Shown here: positions 17,998-43,236 of the stretch, piece by piece
Layout of the letters: each line of letters begins with the position of its first letter
How positions within the stretch are numbered: position 1 is the stretch's first letter
DNA from: Armillaria gallica
Taxonomy: Eukaryota; Basidiomycota; Agaricomycetes; Agaricales; Physalacriaceae
Assembly (NCBI GenBank): GCA_037576215.1
Contig: JBANDB010000001.1
Location: 5,952,001-6,016,000, forward strand
Length of the DNA stretch: 64,000 nucleotides
Direction: 5' to 3'
The notes under the pieces: model-generated
Told to the model about the DNA's origin: nothing
Database searches by the model: none
What the model saw: only the letters and a program-made list of their open reading frames with translations
Position numbers and translations under genes: made by a program

Positions 17998-18411
17998 TGT
18001 AAGACCCGAACTTCAATCAAGGGTAAATAGTCAGCTGTATCGTGTTTGTACAGTCACCGACTAGTCCCGAAGAGATTGACATACAAGACTAACTTGATAG
18101 CACTTAGCGAGAAGGAAGGTGTTTCAGTATGAATAAACGTTAGCTCAAAGCTAGGGAATATACAGCTTTGAGTACACTACTTATATACTAAAGTGAGGGT
18201 CTGCAATAAGTGCTAAGACAAGGGTACCGTGTTAGAAAGTGAATAAGCCAAATACACGGTAACTGAGAATAATATGTGTCAGTGGAGTTGTGACGATGTG
18301 AAGATTTATGAAGGCTCTGTGGAGTCGCGGATCTAAAGATAAGATAAGGTAAGCGCTGAAGATAAGATAAGATAAGAGGTGCTTAGGTAAAGAAATGAAT
18401 AAATCGTAACA
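17998..18411 (-). repeat. 3' LTR of the gypsy element
   Basis: 414 bp, identical in length to the 5' LTR at 42818-43231. It differs from it at 21 positions, all transitions. It contains the TATA motif (18180-18187 on the minus strand) and the GTTAGCTCAAAGCT motif (18139-18152). Confidence 0.93.
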
Positions 18412-18425
18412 TTACCCCCCTGTTA
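18412..18425 (-). promoter_or_regulatory. polypurine tract of the gypsy element
   Basis: In element sense the bases next to the 3' LTR read AACAGGGGGGTAA, the expected purine-rich plus-strand primer. Confidence 0.7.
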
Positions 18426-18622
18426 AGGCAGGTGTCCCAACTGCTGTTAGCTTCAATCCCATCGTTACTTTTTCACAATGCCAAGCCCAAAGTTAGGGTG
18501 TCTGCCTGGCCAGCTGGGACCTCTTTTCTTTGATCCCTATACGCAAGGGACCGAACGAAGAGGAGGAATATCGTCATCAGGTGGATGTGGAAGCGGTAAG
18601 TCTGGTAAACTTTTTCATGTCG

Positions 18623-21341
18623 TCATGGTATTTCTTGTGGTGCAAATGGTGATTTTGTGTCTGTCAAAGAGTCGTCATGGCCACCAAGCCAATCCCAGTC
18701 TAGCTGTTGGTCGTACCAAACTTTTTGTCCAGTGAATGGATCCATGTAGGATTGCCAATCTCCTGTTTCATGCTTGGTACGATTCACCCGTTCGGCGAGG
18801 TATTCATCAACAAGTTCGTCTGCGTCTATGTCTTCTTCCTTTACCCAGCTGTTTGACTCTGGTCCGTAGCCTTTCCATTTGACAAAGTAGTCTGTCACCC
18901 AGTGCGATGGTTCCCCTGCTTTTCCTCTGACCTTTTGGTCTCTACTGTCGAGTACTTGCTCGATTTCGTAGTGCTCTTCGCTGTCAATAAGATTGGGCGG
19001 TGGCAGAGGTGGCTGTTCTTGATTTGGGAATGCGGGTGGCATGTATGGTGTGAGGAGTACTTTGTTGAATACTGGATGGATATGCCAGTTCATTGGGAGT
19101 TTTAATTTATATGCTGAAGCCCCAATTTTTGCGATGATGGGGAATGGGCCTGTTCGTTTGTCTGTGAGTTTCTTCTTGGGACATGGGAGATTGAGGTTGA
19201 TTGTATTGAGCCAAACCTTATCTCCCACCTGGTATTCGACTGCAGGTCGTTTCTTTTTGTCATATTGGGCTTTCATCTGGTCGGCGGCTTTCTTGAGTGC
19301 TTGCTTTGCTTCAGCATGGATTTTCTGCATCTGTGAAATGAATGTGGTTGAGGCTGGTGTTCTGAAGGGTGCTCGGGGTTTTGCGCCTGGGAGGAGGTCA
19401 GCGTTATAGCCGTAGTTAACCTCGAAGGGACTTTTGCCCGTAGCGGAATGGGTGCGGTTGTTGTGAGCAAAGGCCGCAAGGGAGAGCCATTCAACCCAGT
19501 CATTCTGGAGGTGATTGACAAAGATCTGGAGGTATTTTTCAACCTCCTGATTAACTCATTCAGTCTGTCCATCAGTCTGTGGATGATAGGTGGTGGATAC
19601 GTTTGCCTTAATTTGAAGCAAGTCATAAAGGTCTTTCATGAACTTGGATACGAACACAGTGCCTCGGTCGGAGATGACGACCTGAGGCATCCCATGTTTG
19701 GCGTATACTTCGTTGCGTAGGATTTTGGCCCACCCTTCCGATGACAGCTCCATGGTACATGCTATCGGTATGATTTCCTTAGAGAATCGGTCAACGATCA
19801 TTAAGATTGCATCAAAACCATTGCACTTTGGTAAACCAGTGACCATGTCTACAGAGATGTGAGTCCATGGTCGGAAGGGTATGGCATTGGGATGAAGGGG
19901 TGCAGCTTTTGCTTGCGTGCTTGACTTGGTTCATTGACACGTTTCGCAGGTGCGGACATAGTTTTCAATGTCCTTCTTCATCCTTGGCCACCAATATTCT
20001 CGTAAGACGAGTTCTTTAGTCTTTTCAATGCCGGGGTGTCCTGCTGTGATGTGGTCGTAAAATTGTGTGATTATTTCTCCTCGTAACGCGTGGTCAGAAG
20101 GAACATAGATGTGGGAGTCGTAAAAGATCAGCCCGTCAACTAGTTTCATTCCTCAGTCGTGGTTAAGGGAAGTCGCGACATTCTTGTCCCATCGGTGGTG
20201 GTTGAGCATGGCTTGCTTTATCTTGGTGTGGGTTTCCTCGATAGTGGGCATGACTAATGCCTGGAAGTGCTCGGGTTTGAGGATGATAACCTCATTGTTG
20301 TCCTCCTTTCCTTGCTCGTGGTCTGCTCGTTGGCTTAGTAAGTCGGCCTTCTTGTTTGCCGGTCCCGGTTTGTGGTGTAGTGAGAAATGGTATTTGGCAA
20401 GCTCAGTTACCCAACATGCTTGACGTCAGTTGAGCTTTTGGGGCTTTCGGAAATACTGCAGATTTTGATGATCTGTCCATATCTCGAAGTCCTGAGCTGC
20501 ACCCATTAGGTAGTGCCTCCACTTGTCCAGGGCTAGCATGATTGCCAGCAGTTCCTTGTCGTAAATTTCATAATTTCGTTCTGTAACTGTGAGGGACTTG
20601 GACAGAAATGTGACTGGGCACCATTTTCCATCCTGCTCTTGCGACAATACAGTGCCAATCGCTCCCTCACTTGCATCCGCCTCTACACGGAACTTTCCTT
20701 CCTCTGTGGGTATTGCCAGTACCACTTCTTCAGCCAGCAGTCTTTTCAGCTCCTTGAACACATCCTGTTGCGCTTTTCCCCACTTCCACGGATCATTTCC
20801 TGTCAGCTGGGTCATCGGCTTGATGACCTTGCTGTATCCTTTGATGAAACGTCTGTAGAAGTTGGTAAAGCCTAAGAACGACTGCAGTTGTACTTTCTTG
20901 ACTGGCACAGGCCATTCCGCAATCCCTGCGATTTTGACTGGGTCCATCCGGATGCTTCCTTCACTGATGATGACTCCAAGGTATTTGGTTTCCAAGGTTT
21001 CGAACTCGCATTTCTCCGCTTTAAGGAATAGCTTGTTCTTTCGTAAGGTCCTTAGAACCTCACATGTGATGCGACGATGCTCTTCCTTGGTTTTGGACAT
21101 GATTAGGATATCGTTGAGGTAGACTGTGACGCAACCTGATGCAATGAGATTTTTAAAGATATCATTCATCATCCACTGGAAGGTGGCCGGCGAGTTGGTG
21201 AGCCCGAAGAACATAACTGTGGGTTCGAACAACCCTCAATTAGTTCTGAATGCTGCCTTCCATTCGTCGCCACTCTTGATGCATACGTTGTTGTATCCCC
21301 ATCAAACATCGAGCTTGGAAAAGTACTTGGCCCCTCGTAGT
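18623..21341 (-). pseudogene. pol: gypsy pol, 3' part: RT core, RNase H, integrase, chromodomain
   Basis: In one frame, interrupted by stops at 19556, 19931, 20153, 20426, 21236 and 21302. RT motifs are GLFEPTVMFFGLTNSPATFQ and a YLNDILI box (usual Y-x-DD, here N replaces the first Asp). RNase H follows (RVEADASEGAIGTVLSQ, YDKELLAIMLALDKWRHYL, IWTDHQNLQYF), then the integrase zinc finger (H-x-AGHPGIEKT...CETC) and core (DRFSKEIIPIAC, VISDRGTVFVSKF, TTYHPQTDGQTE), GPFPIIAKIGASAYKL...HPVFNKVLL, and a chromodomain (YEIEQVLDSR...YFVKWKGYG...SWVKEEDI). Each stop is TGA, mostly at positions that are Arg in related elements. Translation is truncated at the left KDZ junction. Confidence 0.92.
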
Positions 21342-21348
21342 TTATCCA
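21342..21348. repeat. KDZ target duplication TTATCCA (left)
   Basis: Same 7 bases at 35133-35139. Removing the DNA between restores the RT frame around ISELMDKLRGAKY. Confidence 0.8.
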
Positions 21349-21393
21349 CAGGCATATACATAGATATAGGCCTACAGCACCTGGTTATAACCA

Positions 21394-23645
21394 CAATGGC
21401 TTAGGTCTACAGCATGGTTATTTAACCACACTCTGGTGCAGGGGCAAATTTTGCATTTGGGGCCCTCCAGGGGCCCTTTTTTGGCCTGCTTTCTGGGTAA
21501 TTGGTTGCCATCTGGTCCCATTCAATAATCTACAGTATTATTTCCCATAAAATGTGGTACATGCCCTCAATTCCGTCCTTAATCCTGTAAATCCACCCAA
21601 ATGGGCCAATCTTTTACCACTGCCCTTTCTTCCGTAGCCACATCATCAGACACATGTGTGTGCCACAATCAAACTTGGTCCTGTTACGCTTTCTTGTTAT
21701 TCTGTTATTTCCGAATTGTGTCACCAATGTGACATGACCATTCAATCCCAACCTGCTAACTTCTAAGCTACAATCGCCCCACTTTCCACACTACCATCCC
21801 TTACTAGCAAATTCCTGAGGACGAGGGCAAATAAAGTCTTTTCTTCCATGGCCATGTCATCAGACACGCTGATGAGCCTCCAGGCTCTGTACGCTCAGAA
21901 TTCATGGATTTAGCCATCCATCACCCAATACCTTTAAAACGACACCATTATAATCCTTACACACTCCATAACACTGCCAACTCTCAACAATACCACGGAT
22001 TTTCGCAGTATAAGCTGCAAACACCCAGATACAATCCTAAAACCGTGACATCTACTCCTCACACACTCCGTTATCCTTCCCAGCTCGCCTCGCATCACAA
22101 TTACCGTATCCCATCACAGCAAGACATCTTTGATCGACAATCATCCTAAAACGGGGTTGCTACATCACTCAGAAGCATCTGGTTGATGTGCCCATCAATC
22201 ATTTAATGAAATGACGTGATTGACACGAGTACCCTCCCAGCTACGACAATTACAGCTACGGCAACTATAGACCACATTTACTAAGGCTGTTACAGTGCCA
22301 AGACTTTGAATTATCATTGCCCCATGCATACACCTCAGCACGGCAACTGCAGCTCAATAATCCGCAGCTAAACAGCACCTTATGATCCGCTCATCACTCA
22401 ATAAAACCACACGGTTCGCATCCATACATGGCAACATCAAGGACTTGCTGTTACTTTAGAACCATGGACACCATATGTTTACTACGGCTATTACAAAAGC
22501 CAAGGACTTACAGCCTTACTAAGGCTCCGAAGAATATTCTATTTATAAAATCGTACTTGTAGTATAAAAACTAGGTAGATACTGCATTTTTAGAGCTAGT
22601 TCTTACCCAGTTGACGAGGCTACAGCATTACCAGTCAGCTACAGTTACTCCAAGTTATTCCCCACTGCTTGCTTTACTCTTTAAACGTTGTTGGTTGCAC
22701 CAATACATGAAATCTTGCATCAATAACTTGCTTTTGTCTTTTAATGCCATAACATCGCTTCACTTTCACCACATAGGATTGTTTCATTGCCTTCACCTTC
22801 TACATCGCCATTGTTTTCATCGCCCAGTTCAGTATTGCCTCCGTGTAGGCCCAGTTCAGCTCCATAGGATCACCCTCGTCTTTATCATTGTTCGGAGTTG
22901 CCGTGCATCTATTGCTGCAGCACCCCACTCAGCACCTCAGTTGCTACGATTTCTACCAGTTTCTTGCAGTCTCTGTATGTTTATTGCTATTGTTTCGACT
23001 CACAATATTAGGTACACCCCAAGCCACGTTTACTAGGCTATTTCAACATCTTCTAGTCCATTGCCACGATTTCTAGAGCATTGCAACAATTTCTAGCGTG
23101 TTGCTACGATTTCTAGAGCATTGCTACGATTACCAGTCCTTCCACATGATTACTCGCCCTCCCCCACGATTACTAGAGCATCACAATGATTTCTAGTCCC
23201 TCCCCACAATTTCTCGACCATTGCTATGATTTCTAGACCCATTTTCATGGTCTCTAGACCATTTTCGCAATTCCTATCACGGTTTCTTGGTATTCAAGTC
23301 ATACCAGATTCTGTCTCATCTCGTTTATCGAGATCCTTCCTGGCTTACAGCCAACGTCTATTAGTACTCCTTGACCAAGAGTACTACTTCGCTGACTGAA
23401 AAGTCGCAGTGTATCTTGCATTATTGAGGAATTGACTGCACGGAGGTGCACCGAACCACTCACAAACACATTGCCTTGATTGCTGTGTTGCTACGTTAAT
23501 TGCCTAAGCTCTCACCGAGTTTTGGGTGTTGCCATTGCCACGGAAGTCTAGGCTCATCAACGCATGTTGCACTTTCTTGTTATCTCCGTTATTTCCGAAT
23601 TGCGTCACCAATATGACATTATCATTCACTACCAAATTATTCACG
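21394..23645. other. left non-coding arm of the KDZ element
   Basis: No gene recognised. It holds a roughly 60-bp direct repeat (21683-21740 and 23568-23625, CTTTCTTGTTAT...TTTCCGAATTG) and the 20-bp minisatellite at 23041-23280. The middle is C/A/T-rich unique sequence. Confidence 0.5.
23041..23280. repeat. 20-bp minisatellite, about 12 units
   Basis: Twelve consecutive units in exact 20-base register, consensus TTGCYACGATTTCTAGAGCA, with considerable divergence between units. No spacers. Confidence 0.85.
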
Positions 23646-26600
23646 CTATGCTACACTCACCTCCGTTGCCAGCAAATTAATGAGAACATGATGAACGTCC
23701 TCCAATGCATCATCCCATCTGCCTCTCAATACTGCATCATTCCTAACCGCTTTCCCCCACCATGCCAGACAAGCCAGTGGAGAAACAAAGCCGTTTTGGC
23801 CACTCTTCCGCAGGCACTCCCAATCGCTGCCAATACCGCCTCTGTACACCTCCCCTAATGTGCCGTCAATGTCCCTAACATTGCGCCAGTCTGGTTGCAT
23901 CCCCTTCCACCAAATCCACCACTCATCGGTGAACTTAGGCAAACTGATCTTCGGATGTTTGCGTTGATAATTCTTGATCCACACGCCCACCTCCGCTGGA
24001 CGCCCCACCGACAGAAGCCTGAATTTAGCCCCCTTCAACTCCTCGAATCCTGCTCTCCCTTCCAACACTATCAAACAGCCCAGCACATCACCCTAACGAG
24101 GTCCAAGGTCATACGATTCCAGATATGCCACCAAATCTGCAAACCAGTCATGCCACATTGAGCGGTCCAGCAATGCCAAATCTGCAGGCTTCAAAGGAAA
24201 CAGAGGCACGATCAAGCCAGCCTCCCCATCTTTCATTCTGATCTCTCCCTCAATCACGTCCACCTCCGGCTCCACATCCTCAGGTGTTCCGTTGTTTGCA
24301 CCCCCCACTGTTGTACCATCATCAGGATCGCGAGGTAATATGGCCTTTGGATCTTTCGATTGTGGCAGAAACTCTCCTAGATCCTGCTGAAGACGAGGAT
24401 CAATGTTGGGCATCATAGTCGGCTGCAATGGACCACTTGGATTATCGGCCGGGGAGCGATCGTCTTCCACAATCTCCCTGGATGAAGACTGCTCCTGCTC
24501 CTGCTCCTGAGCCATCTTTTCCTTGCTAGACCTCTTTGCTGACTTTTTCGCTGATTTTTTGCCTTTGGTAGGACCAGCCTCCTCTCCAACCTCCTTGTCA
24601 GCGGTGTCTTTTTTCTTTGAACCTCTCTTACGCTTCGTACCCTTCTTCGACGTCTCCTTGACAAGTTCAGGCTGAACTCCATCGATTTCAGAGATCTCTG
24701 TGGCTTCACCCCTATACAGCCCCATTATCTCCTCAGCGCCATCCACAACCTTCAAAGCATGGGCTTTCATATCCTCTGGCGCTAGTATGAACGTCAGTCA
24801 GCATTCCATGCTCTCAAGACTCTCACTCACTGAAACACGTTTTAGCGAAGCCAATGAATAAATCCATTGCCTGTTGGTGTGCTTTTCCACCACTGGCATG
24901 TGCCCAATCCTTCGGCTGAGCATCCCGATTGTACCCACAATGCAGCCTTTCAACGTGTCAGCATCAAAACAAACATAACGGCGCCGAATTTAACTTATGA
25001 AACACCATTGATTTGCCCCCCTTGTCCAGGATGCGGACCTGCAATCAACAAAGACACATTGTGGCCCAACTTCCTTGACAGCGTCTCGACCCATGGGTAA
25101 GTGACACTCTCAATAGACTCCAGCACCCTAAATTAATACGTCAGGACTGTCATAAATATACTGGCTAGCAGTGCACCCACCGTAATACCTCCTCAGGTGA
25201 CATTTGAGGACCCTCTGATATCTCAGCCTGGTTTTCCCCCTTCCCAACGACGTCTTTCTCCTCGCAACCACCATTCGTGCACTCGGCTCCTCCTAACTCG
25301 ATTGCCGCCTCCTCCACACTCTTTGACGTCCCCTCGCCTTTCGATCGTTCCTTCTCTGCCTCTGCTGCAGCCTCAAAAGGCGCTCGGACATCGGCGGGAA
25401 GATCCCAGAAATAATCCCTCGTCCACCTGATTCAACAACCCACTCGCTCGTTGTTCAGCTTATCTAGTCTCCTGAAGTACTGCTCAAACTCGTCAACAAT
25501 GTTGCCCTTGAAGTATTCCTTTGACCACAGCTGGTAGGCCGTCCTTGCTCACGTCCGGACGGTATGACTCCCCTTTCCTCCCACACTGGAAACCTCATCC
25601 AGGAGCTCACACAACGGCATGTCCAGTCTTTTGTTCATGTCATCAAGCTTCCCGATGTGCCAGTCCCACCAACAGAACAGCATCTGTAAACATGTCAGCC
25701 TTCAAAGCCCAACGATCTGATGAGTAAAGCATACCCCTCGCATCTGCTCAACATGCTGACCCTTAGCTTCCTCTCTTTCCGGGCTCAACACCTCATTCGG
25801 ATTCGGACACGGCAATTGAGGCTCATCAGACAGGTCAAGCTCCCAATGGTAGATGACATAGTACTCTTCAAGTTGCTCGTCCACATAATCCTTGGCAGCA
25901 GTGACATTGATACGTTTGGCAGCGTGAAAAGAGGTTATTCGCTCCTCGAGCCAGGTCAATCATGACCCTTTTGCCCAGAAACGGTGAACCTCGAAAGCCC
26001 TGAACACAATGACATCACCGAACAATTATGGAAAACACAGCCAAAGGTGATTAGTGAGACCCTGACATAACACTTTCACACTCACTTCTTTGATGTGCTC
26101 GAGGACATTGCGTGCTGCGATGAATTCGTGGTAATCCCAAATTGCTCCTGGTCGAACTCGAGTCAGGTTTCTCCCCCGCCCTTGCCCTTGCGAATCTCTT
26201 CCCTCCCAAATTAGCTACATTGAACTTTAAATCCTGCAACTGTACAGTTCACCTCGCCTGGCCGCACTGCAAGTCATCAGACCACACCTAATTCACTTAG
26301 TTGGATACACTGCGTGTTCTCTCAATCTTATGTTCAAAATATTTTAACTATTGTCATTCTGTGAAACGCAAATGCACCCGACTAAGCACTTCAAGATCGT
26401 TAAGCTCGATTTTTCCACCACAAAAATAGAACCTAGAAGCTATGGTCAGTCTTGCTACACTCTGCACTCCCTCCACAGTGCTAGAGACAATGCGATACAC
26501 CTTTCACATATGACGTAAATGTTCATGATGAGCAACCGATGTTGATGGGCTCAGCACCTCATTGGGATTGCATATCGGCCGTTCTGGTTCCTGCATTAAC

Positions 26601-26782
26601 GGTAATTGCCAAGTCTCATGGTATTCTGTCAGTTGCACGTCGACGTAGTCCTTGACAGCCCCGCTGCCCCTTCTCTGTGCGTCACAAAAGCCTCCCAGGC
26701 GATCTTTAAGCCAATGCGCTCGTGATCCTGTCAGCCAGTTTCTATAAGAAGACACAATCGTCAGCCATGCTCGCAGATGCAA
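23646..26782 (-). pseudogene. large accessory gene of the KDZ element, unknown function, degraded
   Basis: A multi-exon gene on the minus strand. The last exon (23646-24781) encodes TPEDMKAHALKVVDG, a Lys/Glu/Gln-rich low-complexity tract, and a conserved C-terminus with DEWWIWWKGMQPDWR and CLAWWGKAVRN. It has a TAG near 24090. Upstream exons include KLGHNVSLLIAGPHPGQGG (about 25020-25090), RDYFWDLPADVRAPFEAAAE (about 25350-25420) and HIGKLDDMNKRLDMPL (about 25620-25670) with TGA codons at expected Arg. Two paralogous N-terminal exons, each with AxKDYVDxQLxEY and CPNPNEVLSP-like motifs, lie at 25702-25959 and 26504-26782. The combination recurs in hypothetical agaricomycete proteins. I do not know its function. 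Exon limits other than the last are approximate. Confidence 0.55.
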
Positions 26783-26907
26783 GGTAGCTACCTACCTGCC
26801 GGTCATCCTGTTCAAGTGTACAGGCTGAAAGTGTCTGCACAGTGTTTATAAGTCATTACTCTCTGTCAGGCGGCATTCCATCCTTGGCATGTATCCCCAC
26901 TATAAGT

Positions 26908-26990
26908 GTCTGTAGTCTAATTGGAGTTGATTCTGTCTGTTTCCATAATTCAAGTCGTGCATCAATTGATTGTTCGAATCCTGCCTGTCG
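26908..26990 (+). repeat. tRNA-like sequence with poly(T) tail
   Basis: TAGTCTAATTGG resembles an A box, TTGTTCGAATCCTGCC a B box, with T9-10 at 26994-27003. The acceptor ends do not pair well. It is probably a SINE or tRNA pseudogene inside the KDZ element. Confidence 0.4.
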
Positions 26991-27004
26991 CCCTTTTTTT
27001 TTTG

Positions 27005-31251: not shown

Positions 31252-31440
31252 GGTGGATGGTAGTTCAATCAATGGCGCAGAAGGTGTGGCAACCTGTTAT
31301 TATGTGCTAGCTTTTAGCTTTCTCAAACATGGCCAAACAGTCCTGCAGTATGATGCACCGAACCAATGTCCTGCCGACCTGCTACAAAGCGACCATCAGT
31401 CTATTGATACAACCAGACCCAGGCTCAGCGGCAGTTCACA

Positions 31441-34400
31441 GTGCCCACCTCAAGATCGATTTCTGTCTCGCTGCATTCCCGACGCCTGCAAGAGACTAAT
31501 GGCACGCCTCTCCTCCAATATCTAGATGACAAAGGCGCCTTCCCATCCTGGAAAACCCTCACGGACAACCTCTATGCAGATCAGGACGTGTGGCTGGATG
31601 TGCAGGACATTGACGAGAGCCCCAGCGCTGCAGAAAACCCGGCCAAGCCAGCCTCGAAGAGATACGCGAATTTGGATGCACCCATGTTGGAATGGATGGG
31701 TACTGCGGAGCGACCTGGCCATCGAGAAGAGTATTTGAGGGAGTTCCTACGGGCTGAAGGACGGGGATCAGCACCCACAGAGTGCTGCCCTTCCTGCGCC
31801 AATATTGCTGACGAGTCACAGGATTGGGATAGCACGCCTGTGATACGATGCGATGAGTGTGGGGCAGGACTTTTGGAGTGTGTGAAATGCTGCCTACATC
31901 GCCATGCAAGGATGGTCCTTCATAGAATCAAGGTGGATTTCCTGACGACTCCAATGTGGTTTTATTTCTCATCGCCTGACAGCGGTGGAACAGGTCATTT
32001 TTTGAGGAGGACTCGCTGAAACGTTTGGGACTACGGGTTCAGCTGGGACACTGGGACATGCACTGCATTAACCCATGTCCTGGTCTGTCGGATTTTACTG
32101 TCCTCCATATCAACAGAATACATAAAGTTGCCATCGATTTTTGTGTGTGTGAGCACCAAAGACCAGATTGCATGCAGTGCCTGCACTTTGGGTGGTATCC
32201 AGCAATGACACATGCACCCAGGACCTGCGCTACGATTGAAATGCTGAAACATTTCCATGTTCAAACACTTTGTGGGAAGGTATCAGCCTATGAATATTAT
32301 CGTGGTCTCAACAACACCACGGACAACACAGACATCGATCTTCCCAAGGTATGCGAGCGGTCGCATGGTACCTGTGTGCGGTTTGTTAATGATTGATTAC
32401 AGACAAGATATCAGTTGTTTTTCCGCATGAGCCGTCAGTTCAGGCATCTGAAAATGATGAAACGCGCAGGGCATGGTCTCATTTATAATGGAATTGCGAC
32501 CTCAGCAGCAGGAGCATTGGTGATACGATGCATCTCTTGCCCTCACCCTGATGAGAACCTGCCTGAGGGGTGGCAATTGGTACTGAAGGAGGAGAAGTAC
32601 ATATTTCTAAATGTAAGAGAACATTGGCTCACCCTGATTCAGATACGTCTACAGGCCCATCGTCGGCGGTGACGCTTGTTTTCACCTGAAAAGCGTCAAG
32701 AAGTCTACCCACAAAAGAGATCCGGGTCTGCATACAGGCTTGGCATACTATGTGGATCACAAGGCATATATTGCACATGTGAAGAAGTACGCAACACAGA
32801 AAAGTGCGTCTTCAGGGTTTGGGTGCTCATATCCATCAGGTATTGCAACATGGACTATCTGGCAGGTTCAGCTATCAAGCATTCATACCCCGACAACCAG
32901 GAAGTATTCTTCTCCTACGACATTGCCTGTCAATGGAGAAAGAAGCTGAGCGACCATATGCAAAAGCTCCCAGAGCAATCTAGGATTCGACTGGATGCTA
33001 TTTTGGACTTTGGCGTGCCAAAGCTTCACTGTAAGGCCCACAAGTATGCCTGCCAGTGCCAGTACTCAATGAACCTGAAGCCGGAGGTCGCATGAACGGA
33101 TGGAGAAGGCGTAGAATGAACGTGGGATGATCTGCACACATGCACGCTGTCCATGAAGGAGATGGGACCAAGAGCTAGGTTTGATATTATTGATGATCAG
33201 ATGGGGGGCCACAATTGGAGAAAGGTTACAGGTACAGGTATGTGTGGATCGTTTTCGATTGTAATGGTGACTGAGCAGGGATAACAGGCCATTTGATGCA
33301 TCAGAGATATGATCTTGCGGTGAAACAGCATGTGCATCAGGCGGCGGTGCATATAATATTCACGGAGTGCTTGCCCGCTGGGAAGAATTGGGCTCAGCAA
33401 TGGATGGTGCAGGTCAAGGCCTGGGAGGCTGACAATAATGCACCAAATCCCTATTTTAGAGAGGTTAAACATAGGTGTCTACGATTAGCATCGTCTGCGA
33501 GTGACTGACAAAGTTATAGATGCTTCGGAGGCGGTGGTAAAGCACCAATTGAAGGAGCAGGAGAGGCGCGCAGAGGAGAAGGGAGTGACTCACCTACATT
33601 TGGTGGGACCGGCAGCAACGGTAGCAATGGGACTGCTACTGGAAGATAAACAGTAAGCTGCCAGTTAACGAGCTTGGAACAGATGCTTACCATTTCATAG
33701 ACGACGCTTGATTCAAGATTACAAAGAGACAGAAGAAGATCCTCTGACAATCTCAGATCTTAACAACCAACAGAAGCATCGCATGGCGTTGCAGCGTGAG
33801 GTCAAGCAGTTCCGTGGGATGCAGGCCGTATACATGCCTTGTGTCGCTCTGCTCTTGTTGGAATCACCAGCACAAATTGACGGCACTGTCGACATCGAGC
33901 ATGAACGCCTCTTGCTTCCTTCAGCCTTGACACCAGCACAGAGAACTGAGGGCTGTCGGAGTGAATTGTCGCAAATTGAGGAGAAATTGAGGGAAGCGCA
34001 GTGCATGGATGCATTGGAGACTCTGCACGGTCTGATTTGTACGAAAAGGGACACATATAGATACCGGGACGGTAACATGAGGGGCCAGTTACACATGACC
34101 CGTGCTGCGGGTTTTGTGGATCATCTGCAGCATCGGTTGGATTTGACGGTCATGAAATACCGGGCATCGCACGAGGTGCTACTTTCACTTTGAGGATTCG
34201 GTCCCTGGGAGAAGAAGCTTCAAGTTCTAAAAGACTCAGACATAGATTGCAGGGATGGGGTGGTCATTTCTATTGATGTGGAAGATCGCATGGAAGATGA
34301 CTCCACTCGTTCAAGGAAGAAGAGGAGGACACTGCCAGAACAAGTAACAACAGCAGGAGAGGGTCATAGGACTGTAGGTTGGATCTGGACGCTGGAAGGA

Positions 34401-34884
34401 GCATTTGGGGGTGATGACAAGGAATTGGGTGATGGTATGTCTGCTCTGTAGAGGCGTGTATTTGTTCTGAAGGTCCTCTGTGACAGCGGCGCATCTCAAG
34501 TGGTTAAAGAGCTGAGCATGTCTCCACTGGTGGTGTGAGCAGGTAAATCTCCTGAAGGCCAAGATGTTGAGGACGTTGATTTCTCTCGAAAAACATGCGG
34601 CGCATTGGGATGATTGGCGACTTGGGTGTGAGAGCCTGGTTGGGGATGCACCTCTATTGGAGGGGAGACAAGCTTATGTGAGCAGCCAGGCAGTTGTATA
34701 CAGAAAGCTTGCAGCGTCGTTTGGTGCATTGTGGAAACTGCCAGCAAGTAGCATGATTAGACCGGCTAGAAACAAGGAGGAGGCATTGGAGATGGAGGCA
34801 CATGAGGAGACATTAGCAGGTGAGAATGAGGCCGTGACAGCCGAGGAGGAGACAGCTGAGGTCAATGACATCGCAGTCGCTTAG
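31441..34884 (+). pseudogene. KDZ transposase with CxC2-like cysteine cluster, degraded
   Basis: An N-terminal part with APMLEWMG and REEYLREFL leads to CCPSCA...IRCDECGAGLLECVKCCLHRH (zinc-binding cluster). After an intron (31933-31982) comes LGLRVQLGHWDMHC...CVCEHQRPDC...WYPAMTHAPRTCATIEML, then, after another intron (32349-32402), RYQLFFRMSRQFRHLKMMKR. The KDZ core follows: YCNMDYLAGS, VFFSYDIACQWRKKL, FGVPKLHCKAHKYACQC, TDGEGVE-stop-TWDDLHTC, GPRARFDIIDDQMGGHNW. The C-terminus ends at 34884. Lesions are a frame change with loss of the usually conserved GDLQKGER block near 32815-32850 and TGA codons at 33093, 33117 and 34513 at expected Arg. These match the CxC2 / KDZ transposase families. 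The start is not determined. Confidence 0.82.
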
Positions 34885-35132
34885 GTATTCAATGTATTTA
34901 TGTACTGCCTAATTGAGACGATTTTTTTTAATGATATGGGAGCCGTGCGTCTGAGTCTGTAGAATAACCAGGCAGATGTGGTTATTTGCTGATGAGTGCC
35001 AGATATGGCAGGACTTTGGGCCAGGAGTGTACTGATTGTGTACTATTGTAGGGCATGGTTAATAACCACAGTGTAGGCTACAGCTCCCCTGGTTATAACC
35101 AGGCTGTTGGGCTAGAGCTGCAACCATGGGTG
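34885..35132. repeat. right terminal region of the KDZ element
   Basis: Contains CATGGTTAATAACCACA (about 35054-35070) and the perfect palindrome CCTGGTTATAACCAGG (35088-35103), mirrored at the left end. These are probable transposase-binding subterminal repeats. Confidence 0.7.
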
Positions 35133-35139
35133 TTATCCA
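35133..35139. repeat. KDZ target duplication TTATCCA (right)
   Basis: Same 7 bases as 21342-21348. Confidence 0.8.
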
Positions 35140-37003
35140 TTAGCTCCGAGATGAGTGGAAGCGGGTATCGATTCTTGATCATCATCTTGTTAAGCTTACG
35201 ATAATCTTGTACTGGTTGTAGCTTGCCATCCTTTTTCTTGACAAAGAAGAAAGGTAAAGCCATAGGCGACTTGGAGGGCCGTATTCGTCCACTCGAGAGG
35301 TTCTCGTCCAAGAACTTGTCAAGTTCTGCCTGCTCGTTCCGGTTAAGAGGGTAGACCTTGCAGTCTAGATTGGCACTTGCATTTGGAATGAGTTCAATTG
35401 TGTGGTCCCATGTTTTTGGCTCAGGAAGTTCATTAAAACTATCTTTGTCGAATAGATCGCTGAAATCCCAACATCATTCTGGGACCATTTCTTCGAACGT
35501 CTTGGTCTTCTTGTCTGCGTTGGCTGTGGCAGCTAAGTCATTGGTGTGATGAGCACATATGAGAATAGCCTGCATAAAATCTACTGCGAGAATGGTATCT
35601 CCCTCCTCCAGCTCTTTGTCTCACTTGTCGTCGGGGTCTGCATCGGGTAGCATGAATGGGTTCTTGCAGCATTCGCACCGTGCAAACGTTAATCCTCCTG
35701 TCTTCCAATTGATGATCGGATTATGCCAGGCTAACCAATCATGACCGAGGAAGATCTGTTTATCACCGAGATCTGTTACAGCTAGATCTATTTGTTCTGA
35801 ATGATCTCCGATTTTGAGATTGATCTCGGCATATTTGGTAATTGATCCTCCTTGGTTCTTGGTTCCATCAGCATTATAGACCAGGATTGGTGCGGCAGTC
35901 ACTCAAGTCAGGATGTTGTACTGTTCGACGAACTTTTGGTTGATGGCGCTACTGGTACATCCGCTATCTACCAATGCAGCTGTGGGGATTAAGGCAAGGG
36001 TCCCTGGTGTTCTGATTTTGACAGGGATAACCAGGTCCTTCCCTTTCTTGCTTAGTGCGCTGATATATTGCTTTGGCTGTTGCAGCTCTTCAAGCCACTA
36101 CAGCACATTGATTCGCTTCATCCCCCTCATTGCTTCGATCATTGAGTCGACCACTTCCTCCATGCGTGCCTTGTGAATCCAATTTTTTAGGATTGCCTTC
36201 GCCTCCGACTCTGTCTTGGCTTCTACTATGCCGCGCAGAGTCCACTCAGCTCCAAATGGTTTAAGCCACTCATTATAAGTCTCGCCGCTAGTATAAGTGC
36301 GTGAGAGTTGTGGGGCCTCTCTAACCTTCGTGTCGACCCATATGGGCTCGACTACCGTTGGTGAGGTCACCGCAGTTTCTAAAGGGGGAATTAATTTAGT
36401 GTTTTTGTTCATCATGAAGCTCATAATGTCCTTGTCATCAGGTACTTCTTCAATAAAAGCTACCTGATGCCCCCTTTGTACTGCCTGGGCACTAGCAGCT
36501 TCCTGTCCTGCGGCTTTCTGGTCGGTTGTGGAACGGGAGGTGCTTTCTGTGAAGGTGTCACCCTATAAAGGGGCAACAGGTTGGGCTGACACTGCTGGAC
36601 AATGATTGCCTTCGCTTCTCACTGTTGCATAGCAGTCGCCTTCACCTGGTTCCTCCGAGCCTGTCACTGTGGTGGATAGGTCCCTCGTTTCATTCAGCAT
36701 TCCCCCTTCGTCGAGTTGCCCTTTGCCACGATAGGCATTGGCAACTAATCGGGGGCCCTTACTTGACTCCGGTTCATCCTCAATTCTTCTGGTGTCCTTG
36801 GCCATTGCCAAAGCCCCTTGGTGTATAAGGGATTTAGACTTTGGTAGCCGTACGGTGTTCTCTTTTACCAGAGGAGGTTTCGCTGAAGCTATTCCCTCAA
36901 AACTCCCAGCGAGGCTGGGACTCCATAGAGCCGCTATGTCAGGGGAGGCGCTATGCACTTGTTCCCCTGCCCCATCTGGTCTAACCGTTATGATGGGTGT
37001 CAC
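35140..37003 (-). pseudogene. pol: gypsy pol, 5' part: protease and RT fingers
   Basis: A linker region (36563-37003, then about 36100-36500 with GAEWTLRGIVEAKTESEAKA) leads to an aspartic protease (ALVDSGCTSSAINQ active site, later IFLGHDWLAWHNPIINW) and the RT N-terminus (YPLNRNEQAELDKFLDENL, SPMALPFFFVKKKDGKLQPV, DYRKLNKMMIKNRYPLPLIS). Stops lie at 35474, 35621 and 35903 (TGA) and at 36098 and 36563 (TAG). The frame runs into the KDZ insertion at ISELMD and continues at 21341. Confidence 0.9.
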
Positions 37004-40000
37004 TATGGTAGGTTACTTGTTGAACGTCGAGCCAGTAGTTTGACAACCATACCGCTCATTCTAGGATCTGTAATTTGATTCTTGCTTAGTTTCTGGTCTG
37101 ATTGCGAAGTCGTGGGTATATTCGAATGCGCGGTGGATACTACAGGTGATATATAAGTACATTTATGACAAGCCATGCTGTAGAATTTGGGCAAATATCC
37201 ATGCTGATTAGCAAAGGACTGGATTGCAAAATCAATGCTAATAGCCAATGCAGCCATTTTGGGCAATAGGGCAGCACATTAGCTAATCTACAGAATGGTT
37301 GGTTTGGGCACTGGCTCATGCAGCATTGGAATTCCCGCCCTCCCGCTCATTGCCTGGATCCCAAAAAAAAATTCCGGGTTCTAAAAAATATATTTCATAT
37401 TCTGGCATCACTTCCGTGGCCACCCACAGCCTACATTAGCTGGATGTGCTCGTGCACGCTTGGATGTACATACCATGGGAATATCTCCTTCCCAATCTGG
37501 TAGCCACTCAATTTTTAAAACGGGCAGAAATTTGAGGATAGCAGCCGGTATATTGCCCTTAATTTTAATGCAGTATGTATATGAAACTTAGATATGCTCA
37601 ATACACCTTATTGTAGCTCTGTAATGTGCATCTATTCAGTGAAAATGTCATATTTCGATGACTCTGGAGTTTGCCGGACCACTGTTAATATGGGTGCATT
37701 GCACAATGGCTCATAGATTGTACCATCACGAAGCTCTTCACGCCTCCAAAATCAGAACGGATGATGTCTATTGATTCATTTTCAGGTTATACATAGCTTT
37801 TCCAGCCATAATTTACTTCCTATGGATCATAACAATGGAATAATGATGAAAAATTCAGTTTTACTACCCTTTGAAGGCAATATACCACGGTACACATTCA
37901 AGATAGAGTGAATTTCTTAATAAACTGTGCCCTACACTCATTTAGACTATCCCTTGCTTCAAATTGTACTTATCCCGGCACTAATGAGTTTTGGTCAGAT
38001 GAACGTACACAAAAAGGGAACAAGGCATAATAGTACTTTGCTTCACTCAAGCAACAATGTGGATAACAAGGTCTACCCTACTAGATCGCCATGGATCGGA
38101 CATTTTAATTGGGTAGTACAATGCATCTTCTTGCTTATGGAACACATCCGGCTCTGTTTGACAGTGGAGGGAACTACGAATAAATGGTATATGCTAGCAA
38201 AATGACCAAAACTGGGGCTTTTGAATAATAAAATGGATATCCGTCACTATTTATCACATTTAATATCCTCAAAACTACATACATATCCTTTGAAACGGTA
38301 TTAGAGGATATTCTGATGATTTCCGGGGCGTCGGAATACAAGAGTCGAGCAGGGGATGCAACCCAAGCGTCAATTCCACTCCCTTGATCATGCCGGACCG
38401 TAAATCCATACAGTGATCGAGTGGCTGTGTGTCTTCTTTTTCTGCCAGACACCACCACCTTGCCGTCTCACCAGGCCCGTCCTCAATGCAAACCAAGTCT
38501 ATTGGACATTGAAATGGTGTGTTTTATCATTGATAGTACTTATTATTTTCTTTTAGGTCTTTTTGATGCTTCCGGCACCCCCAAGAGTGCCGGATTGCGT
38601 GTATCCTATCCCCCACCACCTGCGTAAGCCCTCAAATGAGGCAGCAGGGTATGACATTGTCCCAAATGACAGTCGTCGACACCACTACACTCGACGAGGA
38701 TGATGCTACCCAACCGCACCCCGCCACGACCCAAATGCGACCCCCATCCCCAATGCAACCGACCCAGCACCTCCCGCATCGACATCGGTGCTAATCGCCA
38801 CCGCACATGCTGTCTGCATACTACAATAGTGTGTAGTATGTCCAGGATATGCTATCGGACCCCATCTCGATGCGGGAAGTCCCAGGAAACGCACCACGGA
38901 CGACAAGGACGACGACGCTGGCGACGACGCTGATGATGACTACAAGGGTCAGTGGACTTCTACTGTGAATTGGCGCCCTGGCATTGCTCTTGGGAGGGCT
39001 CACTCGGAAGGAGAAGGGAGACGGATGATGCAGAAGGGCGGGAGACGTCGAGCGGGATCGCGGGATGATGATTGGGACGCTGACACTGAACGACAGCGAT
39101 GATGAGTATGCCTTTTTCAGCATTAAAGGAAGACCCGAGGGCTCAATGAGTGCGCTAGGAATCAAGGCCATACGATGTTTCACCCGCCCACTGCTGCCCG
39201 CCCCGCTGAACACCAACATCGGCGTCCCCCGCTCCAGCCACTCGCCCCAGCCACTCCAGAGTCACAGATACCCCCTTTTTTATGTGGGGGAACACCATCC
39301 TACTGTGCACCACTGTCCCCGACACCCTCGTCACCCGGCGTCACTACCCCATCCCGATCCCCGATCCTTCCGCCCTATAACCAGTCCTACAGCCTAGTCG
39401 CCACCACCCAGACCTCCCTACTCCCATTTTCAATACCGGGCAATCTAACGATGAGATTCTTGACAATCTAGGACCATGCTACCGCCATCAAATGGGCACC
39501 GAAGTCTCCCCACCCCACTTTCCCATACTACTGACGTCTGGAACTCTCTGACCCCTCGGAAACCATTCGCTTCGATGCACAGGGGTAGTATCCTGCCGTC
39601 GACACTACCCGTGACCCCCACCCTCGATGCCCGTGCCCACTGTGCCCAGTTTATGGTGGCAATTTTTTTTATTTCTAAAATATTATATATTGGACCCTAG
39701 GTATACTACTGTACCAGCATAATATGTATGGCATCTTGGCATAATGGTTAGAGCTCTTGTCTTTTCTGTTAGCTCTGTTGATGATGTGCTGTGGGTTCAA
39801 TCCTTATGAAGTATCAATTTTTGCCGCACATATAGCTCAATCGGTGGCCACAAAAAAAAGGTAATCCAAACATTTAATGTTGAATCCATCTAATGTTGGC
39901 TGCACGACATCGGGCTACCACCTAATATGGGTTTGAATATGTTTTTCATGTCTAGTTTCCTTTTTTCCTGACACAACCAGTGAGCACAGGTCCAGTAAAT

Positions 40001-40241
40001 TGAGCTGGACCTACAACTGGCACTCAAAATGAACCAGTTGGCCAAAATGGGATGTGGCAATATATGACCTAGCAGTCATATATGGCCCAATAATTGCCCA
40101 TACCAATTAGCATTGAATATGCAATTTGGTCTCAATGCTGATTAGCATGGCCAAAGGGCATTCTGTACAGCATGGGGTGTTTATGAGGTGTGATAGGCAT
40201 ACCAGCCAAAACTAAGTCCTTGGCCGAGTAAGTTGAATCAT
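37004..40241. repeat. insert between gag and pol: degenerate repeat DNA with inverted flanks
   Basis: Gag and pol are normally adjacent. Here about 3.2 kb intervenes. The left part (37173-37250) and right part (40095-40176) are imperfect inverted copies over about 70 bases (both contain CCATGCTGTA, CATGCTRATYAGCA and CAATGCTAAT), suggesting the terminal repeats of an inserted DNA transposon. The interior (38400-39700) is related to 43900-44700 and 45400-46700. No intact gene and no certain target duplication were found. Confidence 0.55.
39722..39808 (+). repeat. tRNA-like sequence
   Basis: TTGGCATAATGGTTAGAGC is a good A box and GGGTTCAATCC a B box. The acceptor stem pairs only partly (GGCATCT with AGTATC). 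It is a decayed tRNA or SINE head, not a working gene. Confidence 0.45.
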
Positions 40242-41771
40242 TTACTCCTCGGCGCCCTCTTTTACTTTCGTAATGGTCGAGATTTTCTCTTCCATTGGGT
40301 GGTGGTCCCAATAAGTGTTGAAGTGTTGTAATGCTTCTTCCCGGGTTTTTGGCGTGTTAGGGCAGTCGCGCTTGTAGTGGCCCTTTTTGCCACATCGGAA
40401 GCATACTGATGCTGCCCTAGCTTCGTCAATATTCATCGGCTGCCCGTGTCCTCCGTAAGTTGTCCCGCTAGCCGTTGTCGTTGTGGCTACGGGCGCTGCT
40501 GGTGTACTACCCTTGTTAGACATAGTGGTCTTCTGTGATTGCGGTCGAGATGGTACCGCTGTTGTTCCTTCTGCCTGCTTGAGGTGCCAGTTGTAGTTGA
40601 TCCGGAGGAGGCGGGCCTTCCAGCCTTCATAATCAGTCGGCACTTCTCTGTCAGCCAAGTATATAGTATTTTTACTCATCTGGCGGGTGGCCTTCTTGAT
40701 CTGATGGAGCATCACTTGGTCGTTAGTGCGTACTCCGGCGTGGTAGGCTAGTTCTTCAAATAGCTGGAAGAACTTGTTGCCATCCTTGTTGTCTGCTTGC
40801 CTAAGCTTCTCCCACTGCGTGTACTTTAGCTGCGCATCGGCATCCTTCCAGAATCTCTTGCCAAGTTTCGTTTTGAACAATTCGTAACTTGGGTAGAGCT
40901 GGGCTCCCGTCGCTTGATCCTTTCCTAGGATTTGCGCGCTCAACTCCCACCATTTCCCAGTGTTGCCTCCAAGTCGTGAGACACAAAAGACGACTTTATG
41001 AGGGTGGTGTTGGAAGTGTCGGTTGAACACGTCGAAGTGCAGTTCGCACTTTAGGAAGAATCTGGTGATGTCGCTAGAATCACCAAGGAAGTCATCTACC
41101 TCTTTGACAATCTTTGGTTTGAAATCGTCATAGGGGGCGACGGCTCTGTCGACTAATTGCCAGAGTACCGGGGGGTCTGGCAGTGGTGGTGGAGTGGGGA
41201 ATTGTGGGAGCACATACCTTGGGTCAGGAGGTTGCGGTGGTTGTGTGGGTTGTCCGCCACCTCCGCCACCTTCACCGCCTGCTCCATGACTGCCACTGGC
41301 AAATGGTAGGTACCTGGGTTTGTATGTTCCTGGTGGTGCCTGTCCCCTGACGTACGAGAAGGCCGGTACTGGTGCCCGAGCGGGTGCTACTGGTGGTTTG
41401 TCTGGCATTGGTTCCAGTTCCTGTATCTCGATCTCCTGTGCGGCTTCTTCGTAAGAGGCAAATTCCTCCATTATGGCATCCGGGTGTATTTCGTTCCATA
41501 AGAGGCGAGTGTTCCGCTCTGCCTCATACTGTAAGATCTCATCTGATGGGATCCCTCTCTGTTTCTTCATAAAATAATCGTTTCCAGCTTGGGAGTTTCC
41601 CCAAACTGGAGCGAAGGGTAATTCGTAGGCAAAATAATTATACATATCTTGGTAATCTGCTTGCCTTAATAGAGCAGGAATGGGGACATTGGGGTCGTCG
41701 TCTGTTTCTTGGTAAAAATTGATGGCATCAGTTAGTGTCATCAGGACCAGAGTTGTGGCGTGTGTGGTCAC
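40242..41771 (-). CDS. gag: gypsy Gag polyprotein with CCHC zinc knuckle
   Basis: The 509-residue open frame is uninterrupted. It contains the retrotransposon gag capsid-like region (FFLKCELHFDVF, KVVFCVSRLGGNTGKWWELS, KTKLGKRFWKDADAQLKYTQ, LRQADNKDGNKFFQLFEELA) and a C-terminal CCHC knuckle CFRCGKKGHYKRDC near residues 458-471. A Pro/Gly-rich linker (residues about 135-200) precedes the capsid. The product would package element RNA. Pol is now separated by inserted DNA, so no fusion product can form. The ORF begins at the track ATG, but the element's upstream Pro-rich frame may once have been fused to it. Confidence 0.9.
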   Translation of the reverse strand: MTTHATTLVLMTLTDAINFYQETDDDPNVPIPALLRQADYQDMYNYFAYELPFAPVWGNSQAGNDYFMKKQRGIPSDEILQYEAERNTRLLWNEIHPDAIMEEFASYEEAAQEIEIQELEPMPDKPPVAPARAPVPAFSYVRGQAPPGTYKPRYLPFASGSHGAGGEGGGGGGQPTQPPQPPDPRYVLPQFPTPPPLPDPPVLWQLVDRAVAPYDDFKPKIVKEVDDFLGDSSDITRFFLKCELHFDVFNRHFQHHPHKVVFCVSRLGGNTGKWWELSAQILGKDQATGAQLYPSYELFKTKLGKRFWKDADAQLKYTQWEKLRQADNKDGNKFFQLFEELAYHAGVRTNDQVMLHQIKKATRQMSKNTIYLADREVPTDYEGWKARLLRINYNWHLKQAEGTTAVPSRPQSQKTTMSNKGSTPAAPVATTTTASGTTYGGHGQPMNIDEARAASVCFRCGKKGHYKRDCPNTPKTREEALQHFNTYWDHHPMEEKISTITKVKEGAEE

Positions 41772-42480
41772 GCGACGACTCAGTGGGTGACTGGGGAATT
41801 CCGTCGGGTGTGGTGTCGGGGAAGGGAGTTGGGGGGCATGGTGGCTCGACTGCGATCATGATGTCGCTCGACTCAGCCAGCTCTTCAGGCTGTGGCTGTT
41901 CTCAGAGTCGCTGGGTGAGTTGCTCCCAAGCACTTGCTTGAGGGGGACAGTATGGGGATCTGCACAGGGACCTGACATTTCGCCAACCGCTGTGCCTTGG
42001 GGGCCTATGGTGGGTTGAGGGGCCGGCGATGGGTTCCTCGATTTCTCGTACAGGCTCAGGTGTGAGCTCTTGGTTTTGTACAGGCTGGTCCCATGCTGTG
42101 TGGGAGTATCCTGCCGGGGGAGGTGTGCGGTGGTCAGGTGAGTCACGGGAGGGGGCAGGGAAGTAGGTGCTGTAGGGGATGTCAATGTTATCCCAGAACT
42201 CCTCGGAAGCAATACCAGCTGCAGGTGGTGGAGTAGGGTTCCTGTCAGCCCAAGTGTCGTAATTGGTGACTGGGGTGATGGGTCAAATGTCATGGCCCAC
42301 GTTGAATCCCCCGACACGGGTGGTGAATCGGGCATACATGCCAGGTGAGAGAGTTCGAGGGACGTATGCGACATACTCGGGAGAGGGAGGTGCAGGGGAG
42401 ACGGTGATGATAGGTGTGCGGCTTCTGGGAGAGGTAGAAGAACTTTTCTCCGGGATGACAGGAGAAGTTGACTCATAAGT
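41772..42480 (-). pseudogene. Pro/Ser-rich leader ORF of the gypsy element, frame-broken
   Basis: One frame reads YESTSPVIPEKSSSTSPRSR, then YVAYVPRTLSPGMYARFTTR and AWDQPVQNQELTPEP, with two TGA codons where CGA is likely (near 42277 and 41899). It is the most protein-like frame of this stretch and lies between the leader TM ORF and gag. It is probably an N-terminal extension of Gag or a separate accessory protein. Confidence 0.4.
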
Positions 42481-42775
42481 CCTCCTCTTCTTTGTCGACT
42501 CTTGGCCTAGCGAACTTGTTGATTGGGATCAGGCGCCATGGTATGGGTGCGAAGATTCGGGGTGGCTGCTGCTCGAGCAGGATGCCATCGTTATCATTGG
42601 TGGGGGTTGTAGCAATTGTGGGTGTTGTAAGAACTGGGGGGGCAGTGTGGGGTCTCTCTATTTGTTGTAGCGGTCTGTAACAAAACCTGATTGCAAGAAT
42701 GAGAGCAATGGAGAGGAGAGTGGCGCTGGGTATTCCTAGGGAGATGGCTATAATACGAGCATCGTCGTTCTCCAT
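42473..42775 (-). CDS. leader ORF of the gypsy element with a predicted TM helix
   Basis: The 100-codon frame is the first after the 5' LTR: MENDDARIIAISLGIPSATL then LSIALILAIRFCYRPL, a clear single membrane helix, followed by a Pro/Thr-rich tail ending KEEEDL before TGA. An acidic N-terminus, a hydrophobic helix and then Arg suggest a membrane anchor. Such a segment before gag is unusual for gypsy elements. A one-base frame change could join it to the Pro-rich frame downstream. Confidence 0.4.
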   Translation of the reverse strand: MENDDARIIAISLGIPSATLLSIALILAIRFCYRPLQQIERPHTAPPVLTTPTIATTPTNDNDGILLEQQPPRIFAPIPWRLIPINKFARPRVDKEEEDL

Positions 42776-42803
42776 AGGTATGTCTGGGTAGGGGCTAAGA
42801 AAA

Positions 42804-42817
42804 AGCTTTGAGCTAAT
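42804..42817 (-). promoter_or_regulatory. primer binding site, apparently self-priming
   Basis: In element sense ATTAGCTCAAAGCT abuts the 5' LTR with no gap. Its exact complement lies inside the same LTR (42959-42972), which fits Tf1/sushi-type self-priming. I did not recognise a tRNA 3'-end match. Confidence 0.7.
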
Positions 42818-43231
42818 TGTAAGACCTGAACCTCAATCAAGGGTAAATAGTCGGCTGTATCGTGTTCGTACAGTCACCGACTAGTCCCGAAGAGATTGAC
42901 ATACAAGACTAACTTGATAGCGCTTAGCGAGAAGGAAGGTGTTTCGGTATGAATAAACATTAGCTCAAAGCTAGGGAATATACAGCTTTGAGTACACTAC
43001 TTATATACTAAAGTGAGGGTCTGCAATAAGTGCTAAGACGAGGGTACCATGTTAGAAAGTGAATAAGCCAAATACACGGTAACCGAGAATAATACATGTC
43101 AGTGGAGTTGTGACGATGTGAAGATTTATGAAGGCTCCATGGAGTCACGGATCTAAAGATAAGATAAGGTAAGCACCAAAGATAAGATAAGATAAGAGGC
43201 ACTTAGGTAAAGAAATGAATAAATTGTAACA
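42818..43231 (-). repeat. 5' LTR of the gypsy element
   Basis: 414 bp, the partner of 17998-18411. In element sense a TATATAAG box (plus-strand 43000-43007) lies 35 bases before AGCTTTGAGCTAAT, the likely transcript start and primer sequence. A 9-bp stem (CTCAAAGCT/AGCTTTGAG) overlaps it. Confidence 0.93.
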
Positions 43232-43236
43232 ACTTC
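43232..43236. repeat. target site duplication ACTTC (right)
   Basis: Pairs with 17993-17997. Confidence 0.9.

Follow-up and report, generated by a model that had tools for sequence, protein, structure and literature searches.

The stretch of DNA analysed here (the window; 64,000 nucleotides of the Armillaria gallica contig JBANDB010000001.1) contains a long terminal repeat (LTR) retrotransposon that lies in U2, the central member of a tandem array of three DUF6535 gene units. The two LTRs of this element differ almost only at CpG sites, and the host sequence on either side of it carries an excess of CpG loss relative to the two sister units. A first-pass annotation of the window had drawn attention to the LTRs; beyond that annotation, we find that transposons are nested in this region and that sequence outside the element has decayed as well.

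The element is delimited by a 3' LTR at 17998-18411 and a 5' LTR at 42818-43231 (coding strand minus), each of 414 bp, which a self-BLAST of the window aligns with 21 mismatches and no gaps. Both copies start with TG and end with CA. The 5-bp target-site duplication (TSD) is perfect, with ACTTC at 17993-17997 and again at 43232-43236; the LTRs are therefore the two ends of one insertion. The element's span of 25.2 kb is swollen by two nested transposons: by arithmetic, removing both inserts (leaving one copy of each duplication) yields about 8.4 kb, matching a sister copy on contig C6.

The element belongs to the self-primed, chromodomain-bearing Ty3/Gypsy retrotransposons of the Tf1/sushi type. 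Its Pfam domains run along the minus strand in the order found in that group, namely gag with a CCHC zinc knuckle (40242-41855; PF00098), the C-terminal part of the reverse transcriptase (RT) together with RNase H (20426-21235; PF00078, PF17917 and PF17919), the integrase core, rve (19556-19930; PF00665), and an integrase C-terminus made of a Tf2-1-like SH3 domain and a chromodomain (18623-19555; PF24626 and PF00385). A primer-binding site, ATTAGCTCAAAGCT (42804-42817, minus strand), is the 14-nt complement of 42959-42972 inside the element's own 5' LTR, which implies self-priming; a self-primed primer-binding site is typical of Tf1/sushi elements. Adjoining the 3' LTR, the minus-strand sequence ACAGGGGGGTAA (18412-18423) is presumably the polypurine tract. 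Alignment to the sister copy L043 places a further part of the retroelement at 35133-37168 (minus strand), where the open reading frame (ORF) at 35093-35473 was recognized by eye as the RT N-terminus and 36098-36562 has no Pfam match. No protease was detected in the Pfam-scanned ORFs of the element.

Both nested inserts appear as homology gaps against L043 and are accompanied by 7-bp duplications. The first (21349-35132, plus strand, 13,784 bp, TSD TTATCCA) is a probable KDZ (Kyakuja-Dileera-Zisupton) DNA transposon that splits the RT gene; it carries a KDZ transposase domain at 32673-33095 (PF18758 and PF18803 are present) and a CxC2 domain at 31980-32396, its ends agree at just 10 of 20 positions, and no close copy of its transposase stretch was found in the genome. 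No TET/JBP domain was found in the seven ORFs of this insert that were scanned, and a genome search for such domains gave three places, all under the Pfam cut-off and none inside the window. Within the insert lies a high-copy element of 1.69 kb (21870-23559) with 10-bp inverted ends recognized by eye, TGATGAGCCT. Its scanned part has matches at 94-95% in at least 39 other places (among 740 first-look candidates), a search for repeats of 14 nt or longer showed no inverted pair in it, and a tract of 20-bp repeats occupies about 23024-23259. We considered the KDZ insert as a test of repeat dependence and dropped it, as its ancestral CpG content is undefined and another part of it is high-copy.

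The second insert (37169-40179, 3,011 bp, TSD TTTATGA) is multi-copy, and its terminal inverted repeats are imperfect, agreeing at 14 of 20 positions. A further multi-copy transposon of about 4.7 kb (43300-48001) lies beside the retroelement, 68 bp from the LTR, with a 10-bp direct repeat, GTGAGTAAAG, at both sides that we read as a 7-bp TSD, AGTAAAG. These three transposons share CA-type ends and 7-bp duplications (7 to 10 bp in the third), and may belong to one superfamily, KDZ, that hit one block repeatedly; the KDZ domain itself was seen in the first only.

The tandem units on either side serve as controls: U1 (4200-12800), which is without this transposon, and U3 (57500-64000), which runs beyond the window end. 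The five best named matches of the DUF6535 protein are all from Armillaria (72-85% identity over 47-100% of its length). Elsewhere in the window, a perfect 127-bp direct tandem duplication is found at 52892-53144, and the ratio of observed to expected CpG (CpG o/e) is 0.60 at positions 1-1000, where the low CpG is possibly due to another transposon.

CpG decay in the paired LTRs

A base-by-base listing of the focal LTR pair bears out what the first-pass annotation had read from it: all 21 mismatches are transitions, 20 of them at CpG or at TG/CA derived from CpG, the sole exception is a T/C at 18012/42832 (noted earlier as near 18012), and at four dinucleotides the left LTR has TG where the right has CA. 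Of the 92 C/G positions that lie in CpGs 20 have changed, against 1 of the 254 C/G positions elsewhere (Fisher p ~1e-11), a transition-rate ratio of 55 (8.8-2289). At all 16 differing CpG-type dinucleotides CG is found in at least one of 31 other LTR copies, although this support for an ancestral CG is thin at two columns (1/31 and 3/31). Each focal LTR retains 13 CpGs. The earlier claim that CpG transitions struck either strand after insertion is thus supported. In the focal pair and in a second pair, L048/L049, the four TG/CA double sites of each pair are all oriented alike; strand heterogeneity across 22 family pairs is not significant (p 0.06).

These 22 pairs were gathered from the one genome (86 Mb, 28 contigs), and 20 of them have a matching 5-bp TSD; the TSD is mismatched in L040/L041 and could not be seen in L074/L075, so that both stand outside the 20-pair set. 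Copies were sought by similarity with two LTR queries and one CpG-free block of 79 bases, and scoring was restricted, for each query, to the best 40 among 456-533 first-look candidates; such ascertainment by similarity makes the pairs a young, similar subset. Four further pairs (L076/L077, L083/L021, L084/L055 and L085/L005) were left out, as the partners L076, L083, L084 and L085 align only partly. Gap edges and complex clusters were masked, which dropped 31 differences in 11 of the 22 pairs (30 of them in the TSD-matched 20). One pair, L006/L007 (C12:2550879-2598126), has its LTRs 46.8 kb apart with a matching TSD and is probably another copy enlarged by nested inserts.

Over the 20 TSD-matched pairs, CpG-type changes affect 305 of 1472 CpG C/G positions, against 40 of 5062 others, and make up 305 of 358 counted differences, 13 of which are transversions. 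The first-pass annotation had pointed to other copies as the place where non-CpG differences might prove equally frequent; instead, the transition rate at CpG is 26.2 times (18.8-37.4) that at other C/G positions. The focal pair is no outlier within the family. The excess at methylated CpGs in vertebrates is likewise near 26-fold, and the corresponding ratio in the tandem units U1 and U3 is, by arithmetic, about 2.6.

The consequence for dating, also anticipated in the first-pass annotation, is that LTR divergence overstates age. Over the 20 pairs the raw divergence of 4.46% falls to 0.73% when CpG is excluded, so that age is inflated 6.1-fold; the focal pair gives 18.7-fold, with an interval as wide as 3.4-737 because the estimate rests on one non-CpG change. 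Given decay almost confined to CpG, LTR divergence would be mostly a clock of CpG methylation and not a neutral clock, and dating by LTR divergence, which is widely used, overstates age about six-fold in these pairs unless CpG sites are removed. One LTR pair offers two clocks, its CpG and its non-CpG changes. In 18 pairs CpG loss at first seemed decoupled from age, with a dispersion of 4.8 for non-CpG changes; this was traced to misaligned indel regions and dropped, the dispersion being about 0.9 after masking.

Site, strand and context of CpG loss

Two processes could leave a record of this kind: slow deamination of methylated CpGs, and an active process resembling repeat-induced point mutation (RIP), which would strike the CpGs of repeats in a burst soon after insertion and leak to some extent into neighbouring DNA. 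Change in runs along one strand is a feature of RIP. If each LTR loses its CpGs on its own, the sites kept in both LTRs, lost in one, or found as TG against CA should number 111, 208 and 49 over the 20 pairs; we see 117, 197 and 54 (p 0.22), with a fitted chance of loss per CpG per LTR of about 0.485. The strands are hit about equally (171 TG and 159 CA states over 22 pairs), and there are no same-strand runs, neighbouring changes being alike in 146 of 286 cases against a permutation mean of 150 (22 pairs).

Nor does the sequence context point to RIP. The mutated fraction is 0.26 at TCG, 0.39 at CCG, 0.30 at ACG and 0.33 at GCG (p 0.09 over the four; 22 pairs), so that the TCG preference of the Microbotryum type is not found, TCG being the lowest of the four. 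Among 52 non-CpG transitions (18 pairs, before masking, unscaled by site numbers), 20 are at CpT, 15 at CpA, 15 at CpC and 2 at CpG; with 15 of 52 at CpA on this unscaled count, the CpA preference of the ascomycete type is not found either. Slow deamination of methyl-CpG accounts better than RIP for sites that are hit independently, for the symmetry of the strands and for the lack of any preference for TCG or CpA. Of the earlier proposal of a methylation- or RIP-like record in a basidiomycete, the basidiomycete host (by the all-Armillaria DUF6535 matches) and the CpG transitions are supported and the RIP-like half is not.

The per-pair counts bear on both processes. They are Poisson-like (dispersion 0.97 for CpG and 0.92 for non-CpG changes; 20 pairs), in keeping with slow decay, and CpG loss is uncorrelated with non-CpG change (rho 0.11, p 0.64; 20 pairs, of a narrow age range). 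A loss alike in all pairs that does not track non-CpG change is what a burst would give, and C:G to T:A change at CpG in Ganoderma transposons has been termed RIP (PMC4457147). As the pairs are close in age and their CpG loss shows no correlation with non-CpG change, the tests of independence, strand and context speak against RIP without proving slow decay.

The methyltransferase genes bear on the same question. The PF00145 profile matches five places in the genome. Two of them, L031 (C9:3880866) and L032 (C18:67597), are identical over 3,507 bp and match PDB entry 7r76, deposited as Rad8, which we take to be the Cryptococcus DNMT5; the doubled locus is either a recent duplication or an assembly overlap. 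Two others match DNMT1 and one matches DNMT2, and another ORF of the L034 locus had no PDB match. No methyltransferase of the RID class was recognized among the five places, judged by matches without phylogeny, which may count against RIP.

An assembly artefact, in which the sequencer miscalls methylated CpG as TG or CA, would be suited by the uniform loss across pairs. Near-identical LTR contexts should, however, be miscalled alike, yet 197 of 368 sites are lost in one LTR and 54 of 368 are discordant, and changed states can be the majority across copies (TG in 27 of 31, for example), as inherited changes would give. We consider such an artefact scarcely credible.

CpG loss in the tandem units beside the element

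The CpG decay is not confined to the LTRs. To the left of the element, host tandem-unit sequence at 15751-17997 has a CpG o/e of 0.50; to the right, beyond the neighbouring transposon, the U2 copy of the DUF6535 gene lies in a stretch (48002-51950, minus strand) with its open frame split in two and a gene CpG o/e of 0.73. The outer parts of the window stand at 0.92 and 0.96, the transposons outside the LTRs at 0.50-0.67, and the LTRs at 0.85-0.89.

Comparison of the three units separates CpG from other changes. On the right side (48.0-51.95 kb), sites with CG kept in both other units and TG or CA in the unit concerned number 41 of 122 in U2, against 18 of 104 for U1 and 20 of 106 for U3 (38 of 210 for the two together), whereas non-CpG C/G transitions (29/939, 30/973 and 39/1000, in the same order) and C/G transversions (12/939, 24/973 and 16/1000) are not raised in U2. 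Accordingly, U2 holds 41 of 79 private CpG changes (p 0.0007 against one third) and 29 of 98 private non-CpG changes (p 0.46). Over the 658 bp that adjoin the LTR on its left, U2 has lost 12 of 18 CpGs against 0 of 6 and 2 of 8 in the other units (2 of 14 pooled), and its share of private changes is 12 of 14 at CpG (p 8e-5) and 5 of 22 elsewhere (p 0.37).

Directional counts of CpG losses agree. In the larger alignments they are balanced between U1 and U3 (35:37) and lean to U2 against U3 (73:31) and against U1 (61:27); in the left flank they reach 16:0 and 18:2, and farther left 13:3, 13:4 and 11:1. Beyond 52 kb, U1 and U2 show no asymmetry (11:6 and 30:26), and most of the smaller alignments among the units have too few sites for a directional test. 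Together, the regional dip in CpG o/e and the unit comparisons indicate that the decay is regional and confined to CpG.

Leakage of change from repeats into flanks is a described property of RIP (PMC4014442), and the CpG loss in U2 could be seen in that light. U1 and U3 are, however, equally repeated as U2 and yet show no excess. With strand runs, context and repeat-specificity all disfavouring it, RIP was rejected as the main process, and we regard a RIP-like account as unlikely.

Relaxed selection on a broken gene, without any methylation, would concern the gene part of the shadow only. The U2 gene (48539-51254) is indeed broken into two overlapping open frames of 612 and 325 codons, where U1 has one frame of 883 codons, and relative to U1 it carries two indels that are not multiples of three (U3 has one). 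Coding CpG losses are missense in 21 of 34 cases in U2, against 2 of 10 for U1 and 9 of 16 for U3, a difference short of significance (U2 against both, p 0.19). Against this explanation, neither non-CpG C/G transitions nor transversions are raised in U2, and we judge it very unlikely.

A more serious alternative, which bears on the spreading step only, is that methylation and decay were under way in the U2 flank under the influence of other transposons, such as that at 43300-48001, before the LTR element landed there. The second transposon is only 68 bp away, the element has a chromodomain, and a chromodomain integrase would favour such sites; moreover, a shortage of CpG is general in the outer flanks of the family's copies. 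The strongest excess (12/18 and 16:0), however, is on the left, the side opposite that transposon, and by arithmetic decay at the LTR rate from the time of insertion, added to the baseline, would produce about the loss seen in the left flank. Prior decay is possible, and we would put it at perhaps one chance in three.

Several points weigh against attributing the flank decay to this element. The loss is flat with distance within 48-52 kb (18 of 51 in the near half, 23 of 71 in the far half). The transposon at 43300-48001 separates the LTR from the gene and may itself have caused the gene's shadow. Around 44 family loci, 50 outer flanks (two of which, from L018 and L054, are probably inner sides) are mostly CpG-poor, with o/e from 0.34 to 0.46 over 1.5 kb and a slight rise only along the gradient, so that the sites of many insertions may have been decayed beforehand; no more than 3 of the 50 are CpG-rich, and these dip near the LTR, having been chosen, in a circular manner, for distal CpG richness. 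The unit tests are non-independent, sharing 79 sites (right) and 5 (left) that are kept in all copies, although the share-of-private-changes tests avoid reuse of shared sites and agree with the Fisher tests. Finally, the paralogue-controlled shadow rests on one locus.

The anatomy shows that an element of about 8.4 kb entered one tandem DUF6535 unit and that two transposons later entered the element. Taking the observations together, we hypothesize that the host then placed CG methylation on the transposon block by the DNMT1- and DNMT5-type enzymes encoded in its genome; methylation at the locus itself we infer from the mutation pattern. Methylated C would then have turned to T slowly, site by site and on either strand, until an estimated half of each LTR's CpGs were lost with almost no non-CpG change in the LTRs. 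Methylation and decay may have spread a few kilobases into the host flanks, the neighbouring gene copy included; there the CpG-only excess is observed, and the spreading and the role of the element as its cause are what we propose. Decay of methylated CpGs in the element and its surroundings seems to us quite probable, a confidence that overlaps with that given to prior decay as the origin of the flank loss. We lean only slightly towards the stronger proposal, that a transposon block leaves a lasting CpG-only shadow on adjacent host genes, with methylation spreading over kilobases and rewriting the neighbouring copy while two tandem sisters stay at baseline.

If such shadows are general, transposon insertions in mushrooms would mutate nearby genes as well as silence them; and if the proposal is true, tandem gene arrays would offer a built-in control that records past methylation spread from sequence alone.

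Comparison with published systems

The Tf1/sushi group of Ty3/Gypsy chromoviruses is characterized by a chromodomain integrase, a self-complementary primer-binding site and a 5-bp TSD. Measured against these general features of the group, and not against named elements, nothing essential differs here: the focal pair has TG...CA ends with a 5-bp TSD, the TSD matches in 20 of 22 family pairs, and the present copy is simply nested and broken. Insert 1 shares its transposase and CxC2 domain with KDZ transposons; its 7-bp duplications and the lack of a TET/JBP domain in the seven ORFs scanned are points of difference.

That CpGs decay in the methylated transposons of mushrooms has been described before. 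In repeats of Ganoderma sinense, C:G to T:A changes form more than 87% of point mutations, with CpG preferred and CpA second; 98.7% of methylated C is at CpG, and almost all affected transposons are methylated (PMC4457147). CpG-biased decay is common to that system and ours, whereas the CpA preference there has no counterpart here; our analysis differs in using LTR pairs, which are identical at insertion, in strand and independence tests that show no signs of RIP, and in a control by tandem paralogues. In the basidiomycetes treated in PMC4352252 (two rusts and Microbotryum), a CpG signature of transposons was tied to a Masc2-like DNMT1, and explained by methylation with subsequent deamination, and no RID is reported for the species studied; the CpG-only signature is shared, and the TpCpG preference of Microbotryum is absent from our pairs. 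Repeats of Marasmius oreades show about 75% methylation per CpG site (PMC9674265), and in Zymoseptoria a Dim2-linked mitotic mutation acts at CpA (PMC8016269).

Two reports bear on the flanks. For Rhizoctonia, both CpG-biased change and leakage out of repeats are discussed, and the authors note that plain deamination would neither target repeats nor leak in the manner of RIP (PMC4014442). In Agaricus bisporus, CpG methylation is almost confined to transposons and the flanks of large repeat clusters are described as free of methylation, with a clear border (PMC7473861); the mutation record described here would by contrast imply past methylation reaching kilobases into host DNA. Among the listed titles and abstract openings on fungal LTR dating, CpG depletion in Agaricomycetes and spread into flanks, we found no paralogue-controlled result on flank decay, and earlier reports may exist. 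What is new at the present locus is that, of the three tandem units, the one that houses the element is alone in having an excess of CpG loss, while its non-CpG changes do not differ from those of its sisters.

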